From the NCBI GenBank assembly GCA_020832415.1, contig JAFIES010000141.1, positions 62,001 to 126,000 of the forward strand: a DNA stretch of 64,000 nucleotides, given 5' to 3'. This DNA is from Balneolaceae bacterium (GTDB lineage: Bacteria; Bacteroidota; Rhodothermia; Balneolales; Balneolaceae). Positions 18,586 to 58,967 of this stretch are shown here, piece by piece. Below the pieces are notes generated by a model, which worked only from the letters and a program-made list of their open reading frames with translations, made no database searches and was not told the origin of the DNA. The first letter of the stretch is position 1. Each line of letters opens with the position of its first letter. Position numbers and translations under genes: made by a program.

Positions 18586-18932
18586 ATATTAAAAGAAGAA
18601 CTTAATTGAAATGATATTTAACGTGAGTTCGATAAAAAAATGAACATTTTAACTGAACCCGTCATGTTGAGCGCACTCCCGATGCAGTTGAATCGGGAGA
18701 AGTCGCTCATCTGTTTAACGCGAAGCGAAATATGAGTTTTCGACTCTGTCCCTCCTGAAATACATCGGGAGTGCGCTCAAACTGACGATTCTTATAAATC
18801 TTATATCGAATGCTCACGTTATTTAAGTATTTTTTGAATAAGGTACTGTGTTGAATTAATAGATACTGAAATCAAACGATACCTGCTTTGAAAAAGTTTG
18901 TCTGTTTGAGAAATCAATATACACATTAAATT
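18586..18932. other. Gene-free stretch with a large imperfect palindrome
   Basis: Between the divergent metalloprotease and tspO genes. It contains the REP-like inverted repeat described separately (18661-18786) and is otherwise AT-rich. The last about 140 nt must hold the tspO promoter. I see no open frame with coding character. Confidence 0.6.
18661..18786. repeat. REP-like inverted repeat element
   Basis: A 24-nt left arm (18661-18684) and right arm (18763-18786) are complementary except for two adjacent positions near the outer end; both contain GAGCGCACTCCCGATG or its complement. Inside the left half, CTCCCGAT pairs with ATCGGGAG (18692-18699), and AGTCG/CTCAT at 18701-18710 faces ATGAG...CGACT further right, so nested stems are possible. 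The element resembles dispersed GTCATG(C/T)TGAGC-type intergenic repeats of Bacteroidota genomes. No transposase is nearby. Confidence 0.65.
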
Positions 18933-41572: not shown

Positions 41573-42220
41573 ATGGAAGATCAAAAAACAATAGCAATGC
41601 CCAGACTCAACGAAAGGGCGCCAGATTTTGAAGCAAAAACCACACAAGGTGTTAAATCACTTGATGACTACGAAGGCAAATGGCTGGTGTTATTTTCCCA
41701 CCCGGCTGATTTCACACCCGTATGTACTACTGAATTTATTGGATTTGCTGAATATGCGGATCAATTCAAAGAGCTGAACACAGAGCTTTTAGGGCTCTCA
41801 ATCGACAGTACCCACTCACACTTAGCGTGGGTGCGAAATATCAAAGAAAAATTTGGGGTGGAAATTCCTTTCCCAATTATCGAAGATCTGTCAATGAAAG
41901 TTGCCCATGCATACGGAATGATTCAACCCGGCGCCAGTGATACCTCTGCAGTTCGCACCACATTTATTATCGACGATAAAGGGATTCTCAGGGCAATGCT
42001 CTATTATCCTATGACCAACGGACGCTCCGTTAAGGAAGTTCTGCGACTCGTTAAGTCGCTGCAAACCTCCGATGAGCACAAAATTGCCACTCCGGAAGGC
42101 TGGGAACCCGGAGATAAGGTAATTGTGCCGCCACCCGCAACTGCAGAAGAGGCAGAAAAACGAATGGATGAGGGTTATGAATGCATTGACTGGTATTTCT
42201 GCAGAAAAGACCTCAACTAA
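41573..42220 (+). CDS. Prx6-type peroxiredoxin with extra C-terminal cysteines
   Basis: 215 residues. The peroxidatic Cys51 is in HPADFTPVCTTEF, with the conserved Arg further on (RTTFIIDDKGILRAMLYYP). The C-terminal arm ends in YECIDWYFCRKDL, giving Cys204 and Cys210, close to the Cys50/Cys207/Cys213 arrangement of the archaeal Aeropyrum thioredoxin peroxidase. It should reduce hydrogen peroxide or organic peroxides and could also handle persulfides. The gene is preceded by a palindrome related to those in front of yeeE and sqr, and followed by a terminator hairpin. Confidence 0.93.
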   Translation: MEDQKTIAMPRLNERAPDFEAKTTQGVKSLDDYEGKWLVLFSHPADFTPVCTTEFIGFAEYADQFKELNTELLGLSIDSTHSHLAWVRNIKEKFGVEIPFPIIEDLSMKVAHAYGMIQPGASDTSAVRTTFIIDDKGILRAMLYYPMTNGRSVKEVLRLVKSLQTSDEHKIATPEGWEPGDKVIVPPPATAEEAEKRMDEGYECIDWYFCRKDLN

Positions 42221-42249: not shown

Positions 42250-42283
42250 AAAAAAGACAGGGCACATCTCCCTGTCTTTTTTT
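42250..42283. terminator. Bidirectional terminator, copy next to prx
   Basis: AAAAAAGACAGGG pairs with CCCTGTCTTTTTT around a six-base loop, with A and T runs on both sides. It ends the prx transcript. An identical hairpin at 42762-42795 ends the cydC transcript on the other strand. Confidence 0.85.
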
Positions 42284-42338
42284 ATTACTATACGCTCTTA
42301 AAACACTGCTATTAAATTAGCTGAGTTAACTCTTCACA
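42250..42338. repeat. 89-bp direct repeat, copy 1
   Basis: It matches 42762-42850 with two substitutions (87 of 89). It contains the terminator hairpin plus a copy of the last codons and stop region of cydC. It abuts the left end of the 423-bp element exactly. Confidence 0.9.
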
Positions 42339-42761
42339 CCTGACTTCCGCACTTTTTTACTTTACAATTTTCAGGTATTGATAATCAACGAGTTGCGAGT
42401 CTTTAAAGAACATTTCAGGTGTCCCAAAACCATTTCAACCCTCCAAAAAGGTGGGAAGCTCAACTCTGAAATAAGGCTCTGCGGCCTTGAATTCCCGGTT
42501 CGTAAGGCGGTGCAGTGCTTTACGAATCCTAAGCCACGCAGGAAGTGATTGTGCCATGATGTTGTAGTTTAAAAGGCGGGGCCTTGGATTCGTTCTGCAC
42601 AGCCGAAGCGAACGCCTCGGGAATTCATCGCCTTGACTTTTTGCTCCTTTTGGGTCAAGCCAAAAGGAGAGGAAAGATGTCACCAGTATCCATGCTTATT
42701 GTTGAGATATTCAATCAAAAAATAGAAATTCCAGAATAGGTGTCCCGATGCGGAAGTCAGG
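42339..42761. mobile_element. 423-bp non-coding element with 13-bp terminal inverted repeats
   Basis: The ends are CCTGACTTCCGCA (42339-42351) and TGCGGAAGTCAGG (42749-42761), a perfect 13-bp inverted pair. Inside are a strong hairpin, CTCCTTTTGG and CCAAAAGGAG (42644-42669), of a type dispersed in Bacteroidota genomes, and a direct repeat AGGTGTCCC (42417 and 42738). No transposase is encoded. An 82-codon open frame over 42435-42683 lacks protein character. It is flanked without a gap by 89-bp direct repeats, so it looks like a non-autonomous (MITE-like) insertion or a repair-mediated capture. Confidence 0.6.
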
Positions 42762-42850
42762 AAAAAAGACAGGGCACATCTCCCTGTCTTTTTTTATTAC
42801 TATACGCTCTTAAAACACTACTATTAAATTAGCTGAGCTAACTCTTCACA
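42762..42850. repeat. 89-bp direct repeat, copy 2 (includes cydC 3' end)
   Basis: This is the functional original: it contains the terminator hairpin (42762-42795) for the minus-strand cydC transcript and the last codons of cydC. It starts immediately at the right end of the 423-bp element. Confidence 0.9.
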
Positions 42851-44494
42851 TACAGCACCTTCCTTCATACTATATACCTTATCCACAGCAAAGTGCCTTC
42901 TGTTTTGATGCGTGATATGCAAAACCGTTTTCTTCTCGATCAATTCTTGAAGTGTTTGCATAATTTCGTCAGCCATCTCCCGGTCCAGATTGGAAAGAGG
43001 CTCATCCAGAATCCAAATAGGTGCATCTTTGAGGAGTGCTCTTGCTAAAGCTACTCTCTGTCTCTCTCCGCCACTCAATCTCAAGCCCAGCTCACCAACT
43101 TGTGTATTAAGACCTTCAGGCAACTTCTTTAATGTTTTGCTGAATCCAACTCGATTCAGTGCTCCAACCAAATCCGCATCCGATGCATCCGGATCTGCGA
43201 TTTTTAAGTTATTGCGCAATGAAGTATTAAACAGCCGAGTGTGCTGGCCGACAACGGTTATATATTTCCGAACATCAGAGCCTCTAAAGTTTTTAGTATT
43301 CAGACTTCCGATCCTTACTTCTCCTTTCCACGGCTCAAACCATTTAACTAAAAGATGAGCAATTGTGCTTTTTCCACACCCGGATGGCCCCATTAGAAGT
43401 GCATGCTCTCCGGAGTGGATCTGTAGATTTAATTCTTTAATTACCGGATTGCTGCCGTAGCCAAATGATACATTATCAAATACCACAGAAAATTTTTGCG
43501 GTTTAAAACTATCACCTCCGCTCTCCTTTAACACTTTATCGGGTGATGAAGTTACCTCTTTAATTCTCCCGGCCGCCTCTTTTGATTCAATATAGTGCTG
43601 AAGCGCGCTTCCAACCGGTTCCATAGCCTCGAATACTGAAAAAATACCAAGCACTATAGCTGTCATTACCAGCCCGCTAATTGCACCATCCAGAACCAAT
43701 GGCAGCAATAATATAAACGATATTGGCAAACTGGCGTTACTTAAAAAGGTGAACAACCCGGTATCCATTCCAAAAGCACCTGCTCTCTTGAGCTGGATAG
43801 CAGCCAACTCTTCAATTTTATCTTCGCCGATTCGTACCCACTCCCTGTGATATCCTGAAAATAACAGATCTGTTGCCCCCCGAACATGGTCATTCATATA
43901 TTGACTAAGCCCGGAGTGAGCAACGGATATATCCCTTGCGGATTTTCCTGCTTTATACCTGATAAAAACCGGCATTAAAAATGCATTCAGTACCATAAGA
44001 GTAAAAACAGTAAGTCCAAGGATTTGAGAATACCAACTGATAATAATGGCTGTAAGAACAATAAAGAAAAGTGCTGTGAGTACCGGAGCAATGGTTTTCA
44101 GATAAAATTCCTGCAGTTGATCCACATCATCGGAAAAGCGACTGAGCAGATCAGCCGAACGATACTGAATTGCTTTTCCCGGAAGAAGCGGTTCAAGTTT
44201 TTCATAAAAGTGAACCCTTAAATTTTTGAGTATTCTAAAGGTAAGATCGTGTGAGAAAAGACGCTCTGCATAACGAAAAGCAGCTCTGGAAATCCCAAAA
44301 AATCGTACCGCAACCAATACCAATATTAAATCTAATATAGGCGGACGTAGTGCTGCCCAGCTGATCAAGTAGCCGGACGCAGCTATCAACCCAACGCCTG
44401 TCATCACGGTTAAACTACCTAATAACAGAGAGAGTGAGGCCCTGCCCTTTAAATTCATAAGCTCGGAAAATACTTCACTAAAGTCTCTCATCAT
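42824..44494 (-). CDS. cydC: Thiol reductant ABC exporter subunit CydC
   Basis: 556 residues: six-helix ABC transmembrane domain (about 15-310) and C-terminal nucleotide-binding domain with Walker A MGPSGCGKST, ABC signature LSGGERQRVALARALL, Walker B IWILDEPLSNLD and a switch His in VLHITHQNRR. With CydD it exports cysteine or glutathione to the periplasm and is required for assembly of cytochrome bd. The start overlaps the cydD stop by ATGA. The last codons are duplicated in the downstream 89-bp repeat. Confidence 0.93.
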   Translation of the reverse strand: MMRDFSEVFSELMNLKGRASLSLLLGSLTVMTGVGLIAASGYLISWAALRPPILDLILVLVAVRFFGISRAAFRYAERLFSHDLTFRILKNLRVHFYEKLEPLLPGKAIQYRSADLLSRFSDDVDQLQEFYLKTIAPVLTALFFIVLTAIIISWYSQILGLTVFTLMVLNAFLMPVFIRYKAGKSARDISVAHSGLSQYMNDHVRGATDLLFSGYHREWVRIGEDKIEELAAIQLKRAGAFGMDTGLFTFLSNASLPISFILLLPLVLDGAISGLVMTAIVLGIFSVFEAMEPVGSALQHYIESKEAAGRIKEVTSSPDKVLKESGGDSFKPQKFSVVFDNVSFGYGSNPVIKELNLQIHSGEHALLMGPSGCGKSTIAHLLVKWFEPWKGEVRIGSLNTKNFRGSDVRKYITVVGQHTRLFNTSLRNNLKIADPDASDADLVGALNRVGFSKTLKKLPEGLNTQVGELGLRLSGGERQRVALARALLKDAPIWILDEPLSNLDREMADEIMQTLQELIEKKTVLHITHQNRRHFAVDKVYSMKEGAVCEELAQLI

Positions 44495-58656: not shown

Positions 58657-58702
58657 AAAGACGGTGATTTTCACTGATTTGAACTTCTGCCTTATTGGTT
58701 TA

Positions 58703-58967
58703 AACCGCCAAGAGCGCGAAGATACGCAAAGGGGGTTCATATCCAAGCTCTGTCCCTGAGAATCCTTGGCGATTCTTTGCGGCCATTGCGGTTTCCTCCC
58801 TCCAGGATTTTACCCTGCTATTTTAACCGCCAACATAGCGAAGATACGCAAAGGGGTTTCTTATCTAAGCTCTGATTCCATGAATACATGGCGATTCTTT
58901 GCGGCCATTGTGGTTTCCACCCTCCAGGATTTTACCCTGCTATTTTAACCGCCAAGAGCGCGATACG
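58703..58967. repeat. 122-bp tandem repeat, two full copies plus a partial third
   Basis: Copy 1 (58703-58824) and copy 2 (58825-58946) each begin AACCGCCAA and contain AGATACGCAAAGGGG, GGCGATTCTTTGCGGCCATT and CAGGATTTTACCCTGCTATTT. A third copy starts at 58947 and breaks off after about 20 bases. The unit resembles the GCCAAG-GCAAAG-type dispersed intergenic repeats; related words occur at about 60420-60470. Confidence 0.85.

Follow-up and report, generated by a model that had tools for sequence, protein, structure and literature searches.

An 89-bp target duplication around a 423-bp IS1634-family MITE in a Balneolaceae bacterium, and long duplications across the related transposase clade

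The cydC-peroxiredoxin locus and its insertion

The window, that is, the whole stretch of 64,000 nucleotides from a Balneolaceae bacterium analyzed here, contains two convergent genes, one for a peroxiredoxin (41573..42220, plus strand) and an intact cydC (42824..44494, minus strand; CydC TIGR02868 above cut-off). Between them lies a segment of 423 bp (42339..42761) enclosed by perfect terminal inverted repeats (TIRs), CCTGACTTCCGCA at 42339-42351 on the plus strand and TGCGGAAGTCAGG at 42749-42761 on the minus strand, which are complementary at 13 of 13 positions. Within the segment only short open reading frames (ORFs) are found, the longest of 82 aa; it is thus a short, TIR-bounded, non-coding segment, that is, a MITE, and, having no ORF of the size of an IS1634-type DDE transposase, it is non-autonomous. 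Both TIRs are abutted, with no spacer at either junction, by a direct repeat of 89 nt (42250-42338 and 42762-42850), of which 87 positions are identical; the two mismatches are G at 42308 against A at 42820 and T at 42326 against C at 42838. These structural elements had been described from the sequence in an earlier note, and its description of the TIRs, the non-coding interior and the exact junctions proved correct. The alignment score of the two 89-bp flanks is 84, whereas pairing left and right flanks from different copies of the element (812 pairs) gave at most 9.5, which excludes chance.

The duplicated sequence is derived from the end of cydC, as the note had also claimed: the right copy (42762..42850) carries the terminal 27 nt of the gene together with a terminator hairpin, and the corresponding cydC 3′ end in the left copy (42250..42338) is a non-coding remnant. 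The hairpin, AAAAAAGACAGGG/CCCTGTCTTTTTT, with a 13-bp stem, a 7-nt loop and a T-run, is present in each copy, at 42250..42282 downstream of the peroxiredoxin gene and, identically, at 42762..42794 downstream of cydC, and is likely a bidirectional terminator. A terminator scan did not list it, probably because the T-run sits within the stem. Duplication of its 3′ end left cydC intact, and both neighboring genes were kept whole because the copied interval included this end and the terminator; each gene retains a hairpin of its own. In a sister species (G023), the orthologous cydC-peroxiredoxin interval has a single hairpin and neither the element nor the duplication.

The interior of the MITE is structured; its folding surpasses that of shuffled sequences on both strands (z = -5.2 and -4.9), and the part at 42482..42666 (element positions 144-328) is the best preserved among diverged copies. 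A search of the element region against Rfam gave no match close to the gathering score, and a distant search of plasmid DNA with the whole region retrieved nothing beyond one short match, to a repeat of Parabacteroides. One hairpin of the interior, TTGACTTTTTGCTCCTTTTGGGTCAAGCCAAAAGGAG (42623-42671; element positions 285-333), also recurs outside the element: same-genus genomes that have no other MITE matches (e.g., G019, G005, and G014) contain several isolated copies of it; in the genome of the window it is confined to the two MITE copies. It resembles a captured repeat of the REP type. Elsewhere in the window, a tandem non-coding duplication of two 122-bp units, 86% identical, is located 3′ of an ORF resembling low-molecular-weight phosphatases (58699-58942), and an imperfect 39-bp inverted repeat, CGTCATGTTGAGCGCACTCCCGATG..., with a spacer of 50 bp, lies at 18660-18787.

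Copies and family of the MITE

The MITE is multi-copy and dispersed over unrelated sites: its own genome has two copies, and sister genomes yield as many as 14 matches. The second copy of the own genome, on contig C84, is diverged (78%); its flanking repeat, decayed but discernible by eye, falls at the 3′ terminus of a reading frame resembling amidohydrolases. A shorter form of 270 bp (L049; G002:C221:19861-20130) is missing approximately 150 bp of the interior, comprising most of the segment corresponding to 42482-42666, and its flanking repeat is undetectable.

A search of relatives with the NCBIfam model NF033559 (IS1634 transposase) yielded elements sharing the ends of the MITE. The element L083, from a genome of the same genus (G005), has the same TIR (13 of 13) and is identical to the MITE at 20 of 20 positions at the left end (42339-42358) and at 22 of 23 at the right end (the final 23 bp, GGTGTCCCGATGCGGAAGTCAGG); its transposase gene is frameshifted, the product matches NF033559 with 352.7 bits (cut-off 100), and the element has a 42-bp repeat of its own. 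At the left end the similarity continues past the TIR (score 39 against a maximum of 32.5 among 1000 shuffles); at the right end, the last 60 bp inside the TIR do not score above shuffles, except for a GGTGTCC block. The TIRs are also common to Bacteroidota members of the IS1634 family. The 423-bp segment is assigned, through its ends, to this family as a MITE, and we infer its parent element from relatives. In the genome of the window, a draft that is 95% complete, no IS1634 transposase scoring above the NF033559 cut-off was found, so the MITE may be an orphan there; among relatives, a split copy of the transposase is present in G012 and a fragment in G002. A 529-bp element in another genome (L085; G017:C168, 1469-1997), with the TIR CCTGTCTTTCGCA, a 93-bp flanking repeat (4 mismatches) and a broken piece of an IS1634 transposase gene, may be another mini-element that is still forming.

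MITEs derived from IS1634-type elements are known from Methanosarcina (247-249 bp); these are likewise non-autonomous and multi-copy, but 6-bp repeats or none are reported for them (PMC3852290), in contrast to the long ones of the MITE in the window.

Long flanking repeats and the transposase tree

The duplication usually described for the IS1634 family is AT-rich and of 5-6 bp (PMC2266710); at the window locus it is 89 bp instead, and this is not exceptional. Long flanking repeats, different in sequence at every site, are present at each of the 12 full-length MITE copies for which both ends could be read; with boundaries set by the TIRs, they measure 89, 80, 89, 47, 112, 74, 47, 69, 81, 91, 34, and 88 bp, and each scores at least 19, against the null maximum of 9.5. 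The site of the MITE in L044, where 48 query bases are present twice in the carrier, is empty, uninterrupted and single-copy in four genomes: G016, G015, G019 and that of the window. The long, length-variable duplication upon insertion (34-112 bp) and the single-copy empty sites place the MITE with elements of the IS1549/IS1634 type, and since the empty sites of sister species hold one copy, the duplication was made by the insertion; the 89-bp duplication arose with the element. Short or absent repeats at other copies, or an empty site already holding both 89-bp copies, had been named beforehand as observations that would speak against a target duplication; the other copies have likewise long duplications and G023 has a single copy of the sequence, and the transposon insertion with target duplication that the note had read from the layout is thereby borne out.

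Full-length IS1634-type elements of the transposase clade related to the MITE (n = 13) have repeats of 32-407 bp, among them 88 bp in L082 (G035, same order) and 75 bp in L081 (G043). The medians for MITE copies and full elements are 80.5 and 131 bp, respectively, with no clear difference between them (Mann-Whitney p = 0.20). In a genome assembled as a single contig (G156), four copies of one IS are associated with repeats of 325, 131, 281, and 156 bp, the latter two of which appear only when the left flank of one copy (L174) is paired with the right flank of another (L175), and vice versa; this exchange is the footprint of later recombination between IS copies, which explains the apparent absence of repeats from some copies. 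No repeat was detectable at the MITE variants L049 and L063 (526 bp) and at one IS (L159). Related elements on complete plasmids, including those of other phyla, add repeats of 406 and 33 bp (Persicobacter), 680 bp (Aliarcobacter), 47 and 61 bp (Rhodococcus), and 56 bp (Actinomyces). The crp/fnr gene at the Aliarcobacter insertion is single-copy in a related plasmid, in a comparison that excludes the right flank; a search for empty sites of the insertions in Rhodococcus ruber and Actinomyces gave no full-length one. Long, site-specific duplications are thus the rule in the long-repeat IS1634 clade. In the Aliarcobacter case (L215; Aliarcobacter cryaerophilus plasmid NZ_CP099557.1), most of a gene for a crp/fnr-type regulator is duplicated, and its 680 bp exceed the 514 bp given in a 2008 review of the IS4 group (PMC2266710).

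The phenomenon itself has precedent, as long, variable direct repeats were reported earlier for two elements of the family, IS1634 of Mycoplasma mycoides and IS1549 of Mycobacterium smegmatis; in that review their length is given as 8-514 bp, and a mechanistic model for its variability is stated as not yet proposed (PMC2266710). The likeness to these elements is in the family and in the repeat lengths as described there; both are autonomous, whereas the window element is a 423-bp derivative without transposase from a Balneolaceae genus. Another type within the family, represented by ISGka5 of Geobacillus and IS1634-1 of Acidiphilium, has repeats of 4-6 bp (PMC8024623, PMC4549789). Elements of short-repeat type were also encountered here (the CTGAACTTCCCCC and CGGAAGTTCC elements); they are similar in size to those of the long type, their transposases belong to the same NCBIfam family, and their repeats of 4-6 bp are consistent with the published duplications of 5-6 bp (PMC2266710, PMC8024623, PMC4549789). 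In a maximum-likelihood tree computed for 51 transposases, of which 11 are associated with long repeats and 5 with repeats of 4-6 bp, they fall on the other side of a single, fully supported branch (support 100/99) which separates long- from short-repeat elements, a separation reached by none of 500 label shuffles. The sample of the tree excludes the plasmid elements (Persicobacter, Aliarcobacter, Rhodococcus, and Actinomyces), ISGka5, and the Acidiphilium element.

Comparison of the transposase with solved structures gave no match. Part of the long-clade transposases (L144, L145, L155, L157, L158, L160, L165, and L177) have QxxLF-like motifs (QPSLF, QASLF, QIKLF, and QLELF) at residues ~57-79, which resemble sliding-clamp motifs; in the short clade, QMSLF is found at residues ~291-335. 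A sliding-clamp motif was considered as the cause of long repeats and rejected: QxxLF-like motifs occur in both clades and are not diagnostic.

Target signature and origin of the duplications

The ends of the duplications are informative because they are target sequence. Among 17 insertions, some from related elements, the motif A-R-A, read inward, is present at 17 of 34 duplication ends, where 1.9 are expected (a count not attained in any of 20,000 resamplings is the observed 17); it is seen at 10/17 of one end and 7/17 of the other, with approximately one expected at each. Position 2 is a purine in 94% of the ends, the richness in A fades by position 7, and outside the interval there is no signal. 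The preference is independent of length, as it is seen both for intervals of <60 bp and of >100 bp. In a second set, A-R-A is present at 7 of 16 ends, four of which stem from G156, whose element had been sampled already; by group, these are 6 of 10 ends from Bacteroidota and Campylobacterota and 1 of 6 from actinobacteria, in whose few copies the preference is weak or absent. At the insertion in the window one duplication end is A-R-A (AAA) and the other is TGT.

The layout at the window locus is very probably explained by a single insertion of the MITE, mobilized in trans by a transposase from the long-direct-repeat clade of the IS1634 family, between the convergent cydC and peroxiredoxin genes; this insertion duplicated 89 bp of target. 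An 89-bp sequence which had been duplicated earlier, or became so later, with an element with ordinary short duplication residing between the copies, is rejected as highly improbable: tandem duplications generally occur and nothing at the window site speaks for one specifically, but both junctions with the TIRs are exact, empty sites are single-copy, and more than 25 unrelated sites, with unrelated sequences, show the same arrangement. Even more remote, and likewise rejected, is the idea that the repeats belong to the element itself in the manner of long terminal repeats; the layout is similar, but the flanks of different copies have no sequence in common (in none of the 812 cross-pairings does the score surpass 9.5) and those in the window include cydC coding sequence. 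Most loci surveyed are in draft assemblies, the relatives checked being metagenome-assembled Balneolaceae drafts with some copies at contig ends, and collapsed or duplicated reads might imitate such repeats; however, the two copies in the window differ at 2 of 89 bases and the same structure is found in the single contig of G156 and in complete plasmids, so that an assembly artefact, too, is rejected and has hardly any probability left.

A more serious competitor, although unlikely, is an insertion in which the transposase joins a single element end and the opposite limit of the duplication is defined by the stopping point of host replication or break repair. It would also yield broad and variable lengths, and binding to the replication clamp has been shown for an IS1634-family transposase in purified form (PMC4549789). 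Clamp binding is compatible with such a route but not specific for it, because the element concerned, from Acidiphilium, is reported to have repeats of 6 bp (PMC4549789). Both copies are abutted exactly by the TIRs, and the same inward A-R-A preference is seen at the two ends, which counts against an end set by repair, as that should have no motif. The two-ended signature instead favors a pair of strand transfers, each to a separately chosen site and the two on opposite strands, after which synthesis fills in the interval. Each end of the element would be joined to an A-R-A-type site of its own, the two sites lying on opposite target strands and tens to hundreds of bp from each other; strand-displacing extension of both target 3′ ends by a host polymerase would then cross the interval, and a complete copy of the interval would result on either side of the element. 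Taken by itself, this mechanism of separate A-R-A sites and strand-displacing synthesis has roughly even chances of being correct. Its extension to the whole IS1634-type clade, in which two spatially uncoupled strand transfers would let the ends pick A-R-A sites of their own, on opposite strands and 30 to about 700 bp apart, is more tentative, with slightly less than even prospects. Of the earlier demand that an 89-bp duplication needs widely staggered nicks, repair- or replication-based insertion or a novel mobilization route, the implied widely separated strand transfers or repair synthesis stand; a new route is not needed, because long repeats are recorded for IS1549 and IS1634 (PMC2266710) and the element is related to these, though non-autonomous.

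In the open literature, no description was found of a MITE with long duplications, of the clade-wide pattern, or of a two-ended A-R-A preference; as far as found, the long-duplication MITE, its clade-wide context and the target signature are new there. What had been an oddity of two elements, IS1549 and IS1634, thereby becomes characteristic of a whole clade that is sharply delimited in the tree. The signature, present at either end of the duplication, discriminates between one-ended and two-ended models, and the 423-bp MITE offers a minimal substrate for assays. Long duplications can spare the genes at both borders of an insertion and can copy whole genes. If the transfers are indeed uncoupled, the geometry of target joining would differ from the fixed stagger of other DDE transposases, and insertion of such elements would duplicate whole gene ends or even genes.
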